NCBI GenBank assembly: GCA_029262835.1
Contig: JAJCYQ010000044.1
Location: 1 to 50,440 of the forward strand
Reading direction: 5' to 3'
Origin: Bacteroidota bacterium
GTDB taxonomy: Bacteria; Bacteroidota; Rhodothermia; Rhodothermales; UBA10348
Length of the DNA stretch: 50,440 nt
Of the stretch, positions 3,424-40,962 are shown one piece after another (position 1 is the stretch's first letter; each line of letters begins with the position of its first letter). The position numbers and the translations under genes are program-made. The notes beneath the pieces are model-generated. The model searched no databases. It was not told where the DNA came from and was given only the letters and a program-made list of their open reading frames with translations.

Positions 3424-6400
3424 CTACTTGATCAATGCGATTTTGCCGGTCGTCTCTCCGATGCCGGGTGCTTCGACGTGATAGAAATAAATTCCGTATG
3501 CCACATCCAGGTTGGCACGGGAGCGAAGGTCCCAACTGACCGTTCCGTCATCTATTCCACTGTCGTGGTGCAACGTGCGAACAAGTTCGCCGCGTGCTGA
3601 ATAAATGCGAATGGTTGCCTGGCGCGGCAGATGGATGAAGTCCACGCGGCGCTCCCCGCGACCACTTGTAATCGTGGGTGCCAGCGGACGCTCGAACGAT
3701 GCCGCCGCCACATACGGGTTCGGCACGACCTTGACGCGGTCGAGCCCTGCCGCCGCGGCGGTATCATCCACGCGTGAGGAAAAAGTGCTGTAGCGGAAGC
3801 GGTCTTTATCGCTGAACGGCTTGCGTGTGCCAATCGTAAACGTATCGCCAGCCGACGGGAAGCTACCCTGGTCCGAGTCCACACGGAGCGCAAAGTTCGG
3901 CTGCAGGCCCTGGTCGCCCTCCTCAAATATGAAAATGAAGTCGGTCGAACTGTCGAACAACCCGTTTGGCTGCGCTTCAAAAAACACAAAGGGACTTGGG
4001 CGGTCTTCCGTCAGGTTGAACACGGTGAAATTCGCTGGCCCGGCCTCGGCCTGCGGCCCGCGCGACCCGAGACGGAAGCCCCCGATGGACTGCCCATCAC
4101 CAGCCGCCCCAAAGCGGATTTCGTAATCGAACGGCACGATGCTGCCTGTGAAGCGCCATTGCGACACATTGGCGGGTGCGACAAAGAGTGGCACCATGCC
4201 GGTCGTATCGGCCCAGCGCGTACGGTCCAGGTCAAGCTGCGTCTGATCGTTGTTGAAGACGAGCCGCATACCATCGAAAATGACCGCCTCGTTGTCACTG
4301 ATGAGCGCATCCGTCACCACGTCAAACCCACTCTGCTCCACGGAGAAGGTCGACGAGGACGTACCCTCGCCAAATGTGACCGTGTACTCGGTGTTCTCCG
4401 TCAGCATACGTGGGTCCAGCACTTCAACAAATACTTCTCCTGTTGCCGGTCCGGCGATCTGCGTGACCGTCTCCGACACACCGCCCCGTTGGAAACCCAG
4501 CACAGGTGCGTTCGGAACGACTTCGACCACGTTCAGGTCGGTCTGCACCGTACCGTCTTCGCGCACGGTCGCCGTGCGCGAGTTCTCGGCCGGGAAGAAA
4601 GCGTTGCTGCCACGGTCGTACGCTGTGACCGCATAGTAATACGTGCGTCCGTTCTCAACGTCCGTATCGACGAACGAATGGGAGAGTCCCGTGTCATCAC
4701 CGAGGTTGAAGGGAACGCCACGAACCCGGTCCATGACCGTCGGGTCGCCAAACCAGAGCCCATTTATGCCGTCGTTCAGGTCGAACTGGGCGATTGGGGC
4801 CAGGAGTGACGGGTTTCCGAAAACGTCCGTGATGGGCCGCGGATCGCGGAAAAAAGGATCGGTGCTCTTGAAGATCCGGTAGCCCTGGAAGTCCATACCG
4901 AGCACGGGATCTATGGATGCCTCGGCCCGTGAGTCCCAGAAGAGCGTCACCTTGCCATCGCCCGGTACGGCCGACAGTACGGGCTTGTCCGGCGGCCGCG
5001 CAAAGTTGTAGTTCCGGTCGTAGATCTCCTGGACCGTTTCCACATTGTTTGTGATCGTCGCGAGCTTCTGGGCAAAGTCCTCGCCGTTTCCGAATACGAG
5101 CGCGAGCGAAAAGCGGTGCGTCTGGCCCGGGGCCAGGCGGAAGTAGCCGGACCCGAAAATGAAGTCGCCGTCGACGCCTCCCTGGCTTTGCTGGGCCACG
5201 AGTTCCTCGTTCGTGGTGAAGAACCCAGGCGTCATGGCTTCCCAGAGGCGCTGATCATCATTCATGCGCAGGCCACCGGGGGGCGTGAAATAGAAAAAGC
5301 TGGAAAGCCCGATCTGGTCCGTTTCGTTGACATCGACCAGGTCGAAATTGGGCTCACCCGGCGTCGGCACGCCATCACCCTCGCCCGCGTCGCCCGTGCC
5401 AGCCAGACCGTCAGCACCCACATCGTCCGTGAAGGAGTCCCAGTCGCCATCGTTGTCCACGCCATCCTGACCCGACTCATCGATCATCGGATTCAACAGG
5501 CCGTGCCGCACCGAGTCCTCGCGCGTGGCCGTGCGACCACGGATGTCTTCCGCAAACCCGATATAATTCTGGAATCGAACCGGGGGCAGCTCTTCGATCT
5601 CCCCAGAGAAATTCTGCTTGCGGCGCAGGAAGTGCAGTTCCTCGTCCTCATCGATCAGACCATCCAGATCGTCGTCAACCAGATTCTTTTCGACCACCTC
5701 CTGCTGCCCGATCTGCGAGCGGATGATGGTCCTGATTTCGTCGAGCTGTGTACCGGCACCCACGGTGTACGAAACGCCCTGGGACGACACGGTGATTTCG
5801 CTGCCGTTGTCCGGCACATACACGATGGAGCGTTCGAACGTCTCGGGATCGATCAACACGAGCGGATCGCCCGGTTGGATGTTTCGCGGCTGGAAGTCGT
5901 TGGGCGTGAATACATTGCCAACGCCCTCGAGTCCACCTGTCACGAACGGAAAGCCGTCGATGTCCCGACCGGGCACCTCGAAGGGGTCCCCGTCGCCGTC
6001 ATTGTCAATGCCGTCGAGCTCATTGCCTGGACTTTCCATGAAGGCATACCCGACGATGCCCACGTTCTGGCCCTCATTGCCTGTAAATGGCGGCGCATCG
6101 TACGAATACACAATCCGGTTGAGCTGGTCGAAGAAGGCCAGATCATCCTGCGAATCGCCATCGCCTCCAGCGAGCGTTCCGGCCGTGAGACCGACGGCCA
6201 GACGGGGAAACGTCACCGTCCCGGTATTGGTCACTTCATAGATGAAAAAGAGGGCATCCTGGGCCAGGAACTGCGTCCATTGTAGGCCGCGCATTTTCAT
6301 GGCGAGGCCAATACCATCGCGGGATGCGTCCGTCGAGTCCGCTTCGAACGACGGAAAGCGGGATTGGACTTCTTTGTCCGACTGGTCATCGACCCAGAAA

Positions 6401-37156: not shown

Positions 37157-37693
37157 GTGTCCATCCACAGCCAGGTCGCCGTATTTGCCGGCATGGGTAT
37201 CCTGTCCACGACGCAGGAAGTAGCGGGTAGCGCCCTCTCGCTCATGCCCGATGCCGGCGGAGAACTCGTTGCCGAAGAAACGCTGACGCTTGTTTCGATC
37301 CTGTCGGCCCGCATATGTGAAGTGGTCGCCCCAGGCGAAAAGCCCCTGGCGGCATCGCTCATGGCCGCTCCATTCCTTTACCGGGACTGGCTGGTTGGCG
37401 CCACCATGGTCGAGGCACAGTCTGGTGACCTGTCCCGCGAGGGCGCCGAGATCGGACGCCGACTCGAGAAGAAGGCGGCCTTCTACGCCGCTCACCTGCC
37501 GCCGGGGCAGATTCCCTCGCGCAAGAATCTGGAAAACGTCATGCTGCTCTGGATGGGTCGGATTTCACCGCCGCGCATGCCGGAAAGTCCGGAAAAACGT
37601 CTGGGTCAGTTGCCTGTCCTCGAGCGCGTGCATACCCATGCACGTGTCGTAGCCGCCCAACTTAAACATGCGTTTCAACCGCCGGCAGACTAG
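37157..37693 (+). CDS. Uncharacterised protein downstream of floA
   Basis: The 178-aa protein starts at GTG. It has no signal peptide or clear membrane helix; the first half is Ala/Gly-rich and mildly hydrophobic (AVFAGMGILSTTQEVAGSAL) and the second half is basic (AEIGRRLEKKAAFY). No family is recognised. Close spacing to floA (6 bp) suggests joint expression. Its TAG stop lies in a CTAG that is the left target-site duplication of a MITE, and the same palindrome ended the convergent carboxylase gene before insertion, so the gene is intact. Confidence 0.6.
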   Translation: MSIHSQVAVFAGMGILSTTQEVAGSALSLMPDAGGELVAEETLTLVSILSARICEVVAPGEKPLAASLMAAPFLYRDWLVGATMVEAQSGDLSREGAEIGRRLEKKAAFYAAHLPPGQIPSRKNLENVMLLWMGRISPPRMPESPEKRLGQLPVLERVHTHARVVAAQLKHAFQPPAD

Positions 37694-37958
37694 GGTCTGT
37701 TAACACGACGCCAGAACCCGCTGTCGCTGACGAAAATGGCGTTTATCAAGGCGTGAGGAGCGAAGTATGGCAGCGTCATTCGAGCGACGAGCAACGCAGA
37801 GAAGCGCCATTTTCGGCGCTACCCTATGGGACGGGACCAATTTCGCGTCCGCCGTCGTTGTTCTCACCTCGAGTAACGCTGCTACACTTCGGTTCGTCCG
37901 CCTTGGCGGACACGAAATTGGCTACCGTCAGCGGGTTCTGGCGTAGTGTTAACAGACC
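37694..37958. mobile_element. 265-bp MITE with 30-bp terminal inverted repeats and CTAG duplication
   Basis: The ends 37694-37723 and 37929-37958 are inverted repeats with 29 of 30 matches, beginning GGTCTGTTAACAC. CTAG flanks the left end (37690-37693). The right copy is split by an IS but can be rebuilt from CT at 37959-37960 and CTAG at 39406-39409. Inside are two more perfect or near-perfect stems: an 11-bp pair CGAAAATGGCG at 37731-37741 and 37805-37815, and a 17-bp pair with one mismatch at 37837-37853 and 37905-37921. No transposase is encoded. End sequence and CTAG target suggest mobilisation by an IS5-like transposase, which is an inference. Confidence 0.82.
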
Positions 37959-37966
37959 CTTTTATG

Positions 37967-37999
37967 TAAAGAAGCAAGTCTCAGGTGGTGGTATGGTAA
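37967..37999 (+). repeat. Left subterminal inverted repeat of the IS110/IS1111 element
   Basis: It begins TAAAGAAGCAAGTCTCAG and is inverted with 39364-39396 (28 of 33 bases). It starts 6 bp inside the predicted element end. Confidence 0.7.
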
Positions 38000-38049
38000 T
38001 TGGGAGGCGCTGTTTTCATAGGCACTCGTCAAGTTTCTGCGGCGAACAA

Positions 38050-38200
38050 GAACCACATGACCAGCCTTTTATAAGCAGACAGCCCTTTGGGTCGCTGCAT
38101 TTCGGTGATCAGGTACAAGTGGGTGTGCAGGCGCAGTCTAGCTGGAAGCAGACAGCATGCGTGCATGCGCTGCAGGGCCTGTTCGGCGCCTGCACAATTC
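38050..38200 (-). ncRNA. Candidate bridge (seek) RNA of the IS110/IS1111 element
   Basis: Downstream of the transposase and read on its strand, two related stem-loops occur. Both carry CGCTGCA (plus-strand 38168-38174 and 38093-38099) and AAGCAGACAGC (38146-38156 and 38073-38083) around an inner hairpin. The first is closed by an 11-bp perfect stem (38124-38134 with 38186-38196). Its RNA segment AACAGGCCCU (38183-38174) matches the left junction AACAGACCCT (37951-37960) except for one G-T wobble, and it contains CUAG for the right junction. The second loop has a segment complementary to CTTTTAT, identical to the element's left end with core (37959-37965). This is the expected target-loop then donor-loop order. 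RNA ends are approximate. Confidence 0.6.
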
Positions 38201-38215
38201 CAATGGATCATGAGG

Positions 38216-39316
38216 CTATGCCGCCAGCGGCATGGGGATATAAGGGGTCTCGTTCTTGAGCACGAAGCGGATTCGATTTAATTGTTTGCGAGCGATCCGG
38301 ATTATGGCATCAGTTTTTTTCATGCGTTTGGTGAGTCGGTGAAAATCCTGGATCAGACGGGGGTCCTTGCGTACGGCTACCCACGCGCTTTCGATCAGAA
38401 TATGGCGAAGCACAGCGGAACGTCGCGTCGTCAGGCGTTGGGTGGGATCATGATCACCGGAAGACTTCTTGCTGGGAACCAATCCAACGAAGCTTGCCAA
38501 ACGGTCCAGTGTCGCAAACCGATCGATGTCTACGAGTTCCGTCATCAGCACCATGGCCGAGATGAGCCCTATGCCTTGGATCGTGACCAAGTGCTCGACG
38601 TCCTCTCTATAGCGTTCCGTATGGGCAAGCCGGCGGATAGCACGCGTTACCTCCAATATTTGGGCTCGCAGCGCCTGCAACTCGTCCAGGTGCAACTTCA
38701 GCGTCAACGCCCCACTTTGATGGAGCAAGGTCTCGGTGTCGTCTCCTATGTCGGCCAACGTTCTCAGCCATTCGATAAACGGCCTTGACCAGTGACGCCG
38801 TGCAAACGTCTCGGGAATACTGATCCCCAAGTGACGTAGTAAGGCCTTGATCTGGTTTTTGACCCTGGTCTGCTTGCTGACCAGACGAGAACGGGTGCGA
38901 ACCAGTTGTCGATCTTCCAGAACGTCTCGCGCTGGAACATAGATACCGCGAAGTTCGCCTGAACGCAGGCTGCGAGCCAACTTGCTGGCATCAGCACGAT
39001 CGTGCTTGTAGACGCGCTCATGTCCTGTCGTCGGCACGTCGGCCGGATTGATAACCATCATCTTGATTCCGGCCGCCATCAAGGCCTCATAAATCCAGAA
39101 TCCGCAGTATCCAGCCTCGTATACGCCATGGTATTGCCCTCCAGGAAAATGGCGGTGCAGGTAGCGAACGAGCGGCTCGGGCTGAGCAGCCTGAGAAAAC
39201 GTCTTATGGTGAAGTCTGCTCGTATAAATAGCCACGGTCCAGGAGCCAAGGTGCACGTCTATGCCGATATAGATATCTTCTCCGGTGAAGTCGAGCTCTT
39301 GAGCTTGATCTTTCAT
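38216..39316 (-). CDS. IS110-family DEDD transposase
   Basis: The 366-aa protein has the RuvC-like DEDD N-terminal domain, with the first Asp in YIGIDVHLGSWTVAI and later acidic residues in VYEAGYCGFWIYEAL and HDRADASKLARSL. A coiled-coil linker and a C-terminal Tnp20 domain follow, with ISAMVLMTELVDIDRF, LASFVGLVPSKKSSGDH and a conserved Ser region. Length is normal and no frameshift is seen, so it may be active. These recombinases act with a bridge RNA at sites sharing a 2-bp core. Its ATG directly abuts a hairpin arm at 39317. Confidence 0.93.
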   Translation of the reverse strand: MKDQAQELDFTGEDIYIGIDVHLGSWTVAIYTSRLHHKTFSQAAQPEPLVRYLHRHFPGGQYHGVYEAGYCGFWIYEALMAAGIKMMVINPADVPTTGHERVYKHDRADASKLARSLRSGELRGIYVPARDVLEDRQLVRTRSRLVSKQTRVKNQIKALLRHLGISIPETFARRHWSRPFIEWLRTLADIGDDTETLLHQSGALTLKLHLDELQALRAQILEVTRAIRRLAHTERYREDVEHLVTIQGIGLISAMVLMTELVDIDRFATLDRLASFVGLVPSKKSSGDHDPTQRLTTRRSAVLRHILIESAWVAVRKDPRLIQDFHRLTKRMKKTDAIIRIARKQLNRIRFVLKNETPYIPMPLAA

Positions 39317-39390
39317 AGTAAGCCTCGTGGTGTAGGGAAGGGAATTGGATCGGTTAACCCAATTTACCTTACCAGCATCTGAGGCTTACT
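39317..39390 (-). promoter_or_regulatory. Leader hairpin immediately upstream of the transposase ATG
   Basis: AGTAAGCCTC (39317-39326) pairs perfectly with GAGGCTTACT (39381-39390), and AATTGG (39343-39348) with CCAATT (39359-39364). The first arm touches the ATG, so the folded RNA could hide the initiation site. The outer arm is also part of the right terminal repeat. Confidence 0.5.
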
Positions 39391-39396
39391 TCTTTA
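39364..39396 (-). repeat. Right subterminal inverted repeat of the IS110/IS1111 element
   Basis: On the minus strand it begins TAAAGAAGTAAGCCTCAG and matches 37967-37999 at 28 of 33 bases. It ends 9 bp inside the predicted right element boundary. Confidence 0.7.
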
Positions 39397-39405
39397 GCAT
39401 ACCGT

Positions 39406-40962
39406 CTAGAGTGGGATGTTGCCGTGCTTGCGTTTCGGGTTCCGGACGGCTTTGTTGCGCAGCATGTGCAGTCCGTCTACGAGCCGTTCTCGCGTGTCGG
39501 AGGGCCGGATGACATCGTCTACGAAACCGTACTCTGCGGCTACATACGGGTTGGCGAATCGCTGCCGGTACTCTCCTGTGATCCGCTCCTCGGTGGCCCT
39601 GGGATCGTCCGCTGCCGCCAGTTCGTGGCGATAAATGATTTCCACCGCCCCTTTGGGGCCCATGACGGCTATTTCCGCTGTGGGCCACGCCAGGTTCAGA
39701 TCGCCCCGGATGTGTTTGGAGTTCATGACGTCATAGGCGCCGCCGTAGGCTTTGCGCGTAATGACGGTCATCTTGGGCACGGTGGCTTCGCAGAATGCGT
39801 AAAGCAGTTTGGCTCCGTGGCGGATAATGCCACGCCATTCCTGGTCGGTCCCCGGCATGAAGCCAGGCACGTCCTCAAACACCACGAGCGGAATATTGAA
39901 TGCATCGCAAAAACGAACGAAACGGGCCCCTTTGACGGATGAATCAATATCCAGGACGCCAGCGAGCACACCCGGGTTGTTGGCCACGATGCCTACCGGC
40001 TGCCCCTCCAGTCGGGCAAAGCCCACAATGATGTTGGCCGCAAAATCCGGGTGTATCTCAAAAAATGACTCCTCGTCCACAATGCGCCCAATGACGCCGT
40101 GCATGTCGTACGGCTTGTTCGGGTTGGTGGGGACCATTTCATCGAGCGCGGCAGCGTCCTGGGCGCTCGGCCCAGCGGCCTCGTGGGACCGCGGAGCCGG
40201 CTCTTCGCAGTTGGACGGGATGTAGCCCATGAGCTGCCGGATGGACATCAGGCAGTCTACTTCATTTTTGCACGCCCGGTGCGCCACGCCACTCTTTGAT
40301 GCGTGCGTTTCTGCGCCCCCGAGTTCTTCCGACGAGATATTCTCCTGCGTGACAGTTTTTACGACGTTCGGGCCGGTCACGAACATGTAGCTCGTGCCCT
40401 GTACCATGAACACGAAATCCGTGATGGCGGGGCTGTAGACCGCACCGCCCGCGCAGGGCCCCATCACGGCCGATATCTGCGGCACGACACCGGAGGCGAG
40501 CGTGTTGAGCAGAAAAATGTCCGCGTATCCGCCGAGCGACACCACGCCCTCCTGTATGCGGGCCCCGCCCGAGTCGTTGAGCCCGATGATGGGTGCGCCG
40601 TTCTCGAGCGCCAGGTTCATGATCTTGACGATCTTACGGGCATTCGCATCCCCGAGCGATCCTCCAAAGACGGTGAAGTCCTGGGAGTAAACATAGACGA
40701 GTCGCCCGTCAATCCGGCCGTACCCTGTGACGACGCCATCCCCGTACGGCCTGTTGTCTTCCAGACCGAAATCCTTCGTCTGGTGCCGGACGAACATTCC
40801 CAGTTCCACGAAGGAATCCCGGTCCAACAACACATCCAGCCGTTCACGGGCCGTCAGTTTGCCTTTCTCGTGCTGCTTGTCCATGCGCGCCTCTCCACCA
40901 CCAAGCAGGGCTTCGGCTCGGCGTGCTTCCAGGTCGGCATAGAGTTCTTCGTGGGTGGACAT
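39406..40962 (-). CDS. Acyl-CoA carboxylase carboxyltransferase (beta) subunit
   Basis: The 518-aa protein is a PccB/AccD-type carboxyltransferase with the crotonase-like N and C halves: [15 protein letters not shown], the oxyanion-forming [14 protein letters not shown] and, in the second half, [15 protein letters not shown] with [13 protein letters not shown]. It transfers the carboxyl group from carboxybiotin to propionyl-CoA, methylmalonyl-CoA or a similar acyl-CoA. The biotin carboxylase subunit is not adjacent. It lies 16 bp downstream of the unknown 415-aa gene. Its TAG stop is in the CTAG once shared with the convergent gene and now lies next to the IS end. Confidence 0.92.

Follow-up and report, generated by a model that had tools for sequence, protein, structure and literature searches.

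IS4321 and IS5075 target the ends of Tn21-family transposons. Bridge RNAs are the latest class of programmable guides for recombinases; predictions assign one to 85.7% of IS110 elements and to 93.0% of IS1111 elements (PMC11208160). The IS621 recombinase carries the residues D11, E60, D102, D105 and S241-G242 (PMC11208158), and the transposases of the IS1111 group are given in the cited description as 330-350 aa long (PMC11187229). The locus described here lies in a 50,440-base stretch of contig JAJCYQ010000044.1, referred to as the window, and is almost certainly, as judged from its sequence, a complete IS110-family insertion sequence whose bridge RNA (seekRNA) lies in noncoding sequence downstream of the transposase gene. 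A candidate bridge RNA had been proposed at this place in a first-pass annotation of the window, whose observation is confirmed, whose interpretation is supported and whose main points are all right.

The element, ~1.45 kb with one core copy counted, occupies 37961-39407 on the minus strand, its limits being set by element-free copies of an adjoining repeat on one side and by three left ends on the other. Its transposase/recombinase gene (38216-39316, minus strand), assigned to the IS110 family by open reading frame, domains and active site, is open and full length and encodes 366 aa. Both Pfam domains, PF01548 and PF02371 (DEDD_Tnp_IS110 and Transposase_20), are present in the protein, and NCBIfam NF033542, "IS110 family RNA-guided transposase", scores 205.7 bits, above its cut-off of 140. 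A three-sequence profile shows that the transposase resembles the enzymes of IS621 and ISCro4, whose structures are solved; mapped onto IS621, the active site is kept, with D20, E67, D106 and D109 together with the serine S286 (S286-G287). The named elements among the plasmid matches, ISEc45 and ISSso6, are 30-31% identical to it, a similarity that does not decide on membership of the IS1111 group. Downstream of the gene, 253 nt of noncoding sequence separate the stop codon from the right-end anchor.

The ends of the element are flanked by a CT core at both junctions. At the junction of target and right end, the core is read directly at 37959-37960 (plus strand), and at the left-end junction it is placed at 39406-39407 (plus strand; AG on the transposase strand) from the three left ends. 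Among relatives, CT (with AG) stands at the corresponding core position in 28 of the 45 with both ends placed, and the core AG is found at the left-end junction in 59 of 62 loci. Repeat comparison places a left subterminal inverted repeat starting TATGCTAAAGAAGTAAGCCTCAG at 39357-39401 (minus strand) and a right one starting TATGTAAAGAAGCAAGTCTCAG at 37963-38004 (plus strand); the pair TATGCTAAAGAAGTAAGCCTCAG.../TATGTAAAGAAGCAAGTCTCAG... is long and imperfect, with a best local score of 26.0. A search of the element's own genome (G000) returned one full copy and two further left ends of 139 bases each, 100% identical to the window and running off contig ends (G000:C51:1-139 and G000:C43:160984-161122), so these other two copies are known from their left ends, and the full sequence, including the RNA gene, is read in the window copy. 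On the transposase strand all three left ends read TAG followed by ACGGTATGC, while the base preceding TAG varies (C, T, T), as does the sequence further out. The element is absent from three same-genus genomes (G001-G003) by protein search; the right-hand gene is conserved in three of three same-genus genomes and the left flank is not, and no empty site was seen there.

We observe that the site of the element is the end of another small, MITE-like repeat. This repeat, recognised from copies in the same genome, lies at 37692-37959 (no strand assigned), has terminal inverted repeats GGGTCTGTTAACAC and carries the element at its right end. It is ~270 bp long with GGGNCTGTTAACAC ends and is present in seven near-full copies and two more cut by contig ends, located in the window and on contigs C3, C11, C25, C32, C43, C49, C52 and C92. 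The 15 readable ends comprise GGGCCTG (7), GGGGCTG (5), GGGTCTG (2, both of the window copy) and AGGGCTG (1). In free repeat copies, CAGRCCC or CAGCCCC is followed by flank, which places the insertion at CAGACC/CT/AG with CT at both junctions. Searching the genome with the pattern GTTAACAGNCCCTA gave 11 sites, all 11 in repeat-matching places; four of them carry the guide sequence unaltered. With the reversed pattern there were none. A TA duplication was at first considered for the repeat, but TA adjoins seven of eight left ends and only two of six free right ends. Titles and the beginnings of abstracts showed no earlier paper on this lineage or on MITEs as targets, a scope that does not prove absence.

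The bridge RNA coding region spans 38044-38203 on the minus strand, with a predicted target-binding loop followed by a donor-binding loop. Covariance model R1, built from 23 relatives with the window excluded, matches this region at full length with 55.5 bits (E 1.6e-8) and no non-standard pair marked, bearing out the earlier placement of a bridge RNA downstream of the IS110-family gene. Within the 50,440 bases, R1 has no other match with E up to 10, and an unfiltered search also returns only 38044-38203 on the minus strand. The target-binding loop (38124-38196, minus strand), delineated by single-sequence folding and by the target-loop-only model R2, is closed by an 11-bp stem between 38186-38196 and 38124-38134. 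R2 scores the window at 15.7 bits (E 6e-4; 2 kb, unfiltered); in a 528-kb search at E 0.05 this less sensitive model did not list the window.

Each loop contains an inner hairpin of the form GCAGC...GUCUGC on the minus strand, located at 38148-38173 in the target loop (helix 2 of alignment A2, 98.9% of cells paired) and at 38075-38098 in the donor loop (helix 3, 100% of cells paired). The repeats AAGCAGACAGC and CGCTGCA, read at first as a sign of internal paralogy, are the arms of these two paralogous hairpins. When single sequences are folded, loop 1 is moderately supported (z -1.97; 7 of 200 shuffles do as well), support for the whole 249 nt is weak (z -1.40) and loop 2 receives none (z 0.68); the predicted loop 2 rests on comparative evidence. 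Rfam returned nothing relevant at the element, its one row being a chance-level snoRNA below the gathering score.

Relatives were collected with an alignment query on genome contigs, the best 80 of 193 being kept (40-53% identical), and a phylum search added more; single-protein scans found no relatives in genome contigs (77 pattern stretches, 0 confirmed) or viral contigs (1, 0 confirmed). By eye, the noncoding regions of the relatives share one layout. Comparison of the sequences reveals the RNA fold itself: RNAalifold on 23 aligned relatives without the window gives 17 pairs in three helices. A lack of conserved two-loop structure had been named in the first-pass annotation as evidence against its reading; the structure is present, with compensatory change in 16 of the 17 pairs. 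The pair counts exceed 500 of 500 shuffles on five of five measures, and the signal is lost when the partners are slid. R1 was run on the window together with 90 of the relatives, leaving out L104, L112 and the exact duplicates L125, L127, L129 and L132, with the distant loci L007-L022 outside the set. It produced 81 matches, namely the window and 80 of the 90 relatives (the 23 seeds and 57 of the 67 non-seeds), while 10 of the 90 gave no match. The transposase strand carries all 81; for 80 the start lies from -4 to 170 nt relative to the stop codon, the exception being L086 at 1,994 nt.

Pairing of four guides is observed in the window. The left target guide AACAGGCCCU (38174-38183, minus strand; target-strand letters), core CU included, pairs with the occupied flank AACAGACCCT at 37951-37960 through nine Watson-Crick pairs and one G-T wobble; six of seven non-core positions are matched and the seventh is the wobble. 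Coordinates and bases agree with the 10-bp pairing to the left junction, with one wobble, that had been read there before. The same guide is the exact complement-strand reading of GGGCCTG, the commonest repeat end, and so fits 7 of the 15 ends at 10 of 10 positions. The right target guide CUAG (38138-38141, minus strand), core AG included, equals CTAG at 39406-39409. The assignment of CUAG to this junction, called the right junction in the first-pass annotation, holds for the CTAG of the window, but the three left ends have only TAG in common: CUAG fits the window site and UAG alone fits the other two copies, with non-core matches at two of four positions in the former and one of four in the latter. 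This guide is weak, with UAG its only constant part, because the DNA past the repeat end and the adjoining TA differ from site to site.

In the donor loop, the right donor guide AUAAAAG (38066-38072, minus strand) pairs with CTTTTAT at 37959-37965 at seven of seven positions, and it is the segment complementary to CTTTTAT that had been noticed in loop 2. The left donor guide ACCG (38103-38106, minus strand) reads as ACCG at 39401-39404 (plus strand) of the left end, with its register taken from the model alignment, and three of four positions are matched in the window (ACCG and the preceding A). ACCG had already been named as a possible left donor guide and called unclear; the motif stands, and the uncertainty is resolved by the register of the relatives and by donor-guide covariation. 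When the 249-nt noncoding region was dinucleotide-shuffled, only 6 of 3000 shuffles gave an equal match to the occupied flank, in line with the earlier view that the matches exceed chance. Against the commonest repeat-end form, which was chosen after the repeat copies had been seen, the same test gave 0 of 3000 on the same strand and 1 of 3000 on either strand.

Covariation of all four guides with the adjoining DNA is observed over the family. The guide register was set by model alignment with the flanks unused, and the element ends were placed through the TATG motif of the subterminal repeats with the guides unused; a right-end anchor is present in 68 and a left-end anchor in 72 of the 81 model matches. 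Identical guide-target pairs were counted once and a few too-short flanks were dropped, leaving 61 and 62 loci, and misplaced ends were kept, with low scores (e.g., L074 and L049). For the left target guide, 314 of 427 non-core positions agree across 61 loci, where permutation gives 153 on average and never more than 190 in 5000 trials (z 17.7); for the 54 distinct guides the figures are 276 of 378 against 134, with a maximum of 163 (z 17.0). For the right target guide, 193 of 248 agree across 62 loci, where permutation averages 66 and peaks at 91 (z 17.9). Because the loci are related, these z-scores overstate independence and the true significance is lower. Flanks that vary past unchanging guides had been set down beforehand as evidence against a bridge RNA; what is seen at both target guides (z 17.7 and 17.9) is change in step. 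The match is confined to the predicted register, and shifting the target outwards by 1-12 bases lowers the mean from 5.13 of 7 to 2.2-3.6 on the left and from 3.14 of 4 to 0.8-1.3 on the right. A first, unanchored test was weak, with the own target best in 11 of 45 loci, since it scanned the noncoding region in full and included some misplaced ends.

The donor guides follow the element ends in the same set. At the left donor guide, 245 of 288 positions match over four bases (168 expected, 0 of 5000 permutations), and 134 of 168 do so when distinct pairs are counted (against 87, 0 of 5000). The right donor guide varies at two bases, and there 109 of 136 positions match (71 expected, 0 of 5000 permutations); over its 26 distinct pairs the signal is weaker, at 31 of 52 against 19 (2 of 5000). 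As we read these alignments, descent alone cannot give such covariation of guide and flank, the guides being too diverse.

Several relatives depart from the common form. In a second subgroup (L079, L090, L093, L097, L107 and similar loci) the right donor guide is TGGAAAG, not ATAGAAG, and the right end is CTTTCCAG, which is a natural change of donor specificity. L133 and L139 (genome G252) have the core CC, not CT, and their right donor guide ATAGCGG fits CC. A Bacteroidetes MAG (JAPLDF010000062.1; L047) carries two tandem full target loops, at 4101-4178 and 4245-4322, followed by one donor loop; they score 41.7 and 41.5 bits, and only the second fits the flanks of the L047 insertion. Among the 69 loci with a target-loop match, L047 alone has two at full length. 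The site predicted for its first loop is not enriched in its own genome, with 13 places at up to two mismatches compared with 44 for the reversed pattern. At the circle junctions of other relatives (e.g., L056, L069 and L088), TTTG would stand 19-21 bases before TAnnTTTG. These boxes have the form of a Bacteroidota promoter; TTTG at promoter spacing is seen at 18 of the 52 distinct junctions, compared with 1.5% of shuffles, 16 of the 52 have the two boxes together, and neither is found at the circle junction of the window element.

These data suggest how the element could move. The 5' side of loop 1, AACAGGCCCU, would pair with one strand of the repeat end, and its 3' side, CUAG, with the opposite strand across the core. 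Loop 2 would read the joined element ends of a circle as donor, ACCG on the left and AUAAAAG on the right. The recombinase would hold both DNAs on the RNA and exchange strands at the common CT core, and the element would enter at CAGRCC/CT/A with no larger duplication; at a repeat end GTTAACAGGCCCTA, insertion is expected between CAGGCC and CTA. From studies of IS621 and of IS1111-type elements, we infer that the RNA is made and bound by this recombinase, and the same studies point to recombination through a circle and a serine-linked intermediate.

The position of the region directly after the stop codon, together with a folding energy only moderately better than that of shuffles, would also suit a mere structured 3' tail of the transposase transcript, serving as a terminator or stability element, with the flank matches being chance or inherited junk. 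We consider this scarcely credible, since the guides change in step with the flanking DNA across relatives, unlike those of a terminator. More weight is due to the view that the bridge RNA is real while the window copy is at present inactive and all three copies go back to old insertions. Only three left ends occur in the genome and none in the three same-genus genomes searched by protein, and there is a wobble at the occupied repeat end; these points are set against an open reading frame, the presence of all active-site residues and the identity of the 139 visible bases of the other two copies to those of the window. Present inactivity is judged unlikely, though it is the most probable of the alternatives considered.

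The copies might also have spread as passengers of the MITE-like repeat and not by three guided insertions, and two contigs do break inside the repeat. The flanks of the three left ends, which agree with insertion at a repeat end, are compatible with this view. Yet the element lies outside the right terminal repeat, so that movement of the repeat itself should leave the element behind, and the cut repeats read GGGCCTG against GGGTCTG in the window, which makes them different copies, the cut repeats not being assigned to particular left ends. Passenger spread is improbable on this evidence. The preferred reading is that of an insertion sequence guided by its bridge RNA into repeat ends.

A wider reading of the whole family is plausible but falls somewhat short of being probable. 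A lineage found mostly in Bacteroidota may have re-programmed its target and donor loops many times, with 54 distinct left guides in 61 loci. The window member would then be a specialised hyperparasite of a MITE-like repeat: the long guide would read the terminal sequence of that repeat, and the second target guide would have been reduced to UAG, since no two sites share the DNA that lies past the repeat end. L047 might carry a dual-address bridge RNA. Four guides tracking DNA over ~60 natural elements are direct evidence of the re-writing of both target and donor specificity in nature, here in the downstream-RNA arrangement. The family supplies candidates with known natural sites, and the window element is an example of a two-sided guide system using a site with only one constant side.

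The kind of system is already known; what is noteworthy is that natural elements present such a clean succession of guide changes, and that the end of a different repeat serves as the site. As IS621 is described in the cited accounts, the window element resembles it in its two loops, target then donor, each with a longer 5' and a shorter 3' guide, and in its CT core, its DEDD and serine enzyme and its guides that covary with target and donor (PMC11208160, PMC11208158). It differs from that description in having its RNA downstream, not upstream, of the gene, in a guide order reversed relative to the transposase strand and in its long subterminal inverted repeats (PMC11208160, PMC11208158). A downstream noncoding region and subterminal inverted repeats are shared with the IS1111-type ISEc11, ISPa11 and ISKpn4 as reported (PMC11187229), as are a top-strand match placed 5' of the bottom-strand match (38174-38183 and 38138-38141) and the lack of a larger target duplication (PMC11187229). 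The IS1111 type proposed in the first-pass annotation stands for downstream placement and guide order, but not for membership of the group proper, since the transposase, at 366 aa, is outside the range reported for that group (PMC11187229), and the likeness is one of layout. The element is placed in the IS110 family, with a layout of the IS1111 type, and not in IS1111 proper, because its protein length is out of range. Like IS4321 and IS5075, it is an IS110/IS1111-type element whose site is a terminal inverted repeat belonging to a different transposon; in contrast to theirs, this site is a short MITE-like repeat end of the host's own genome.
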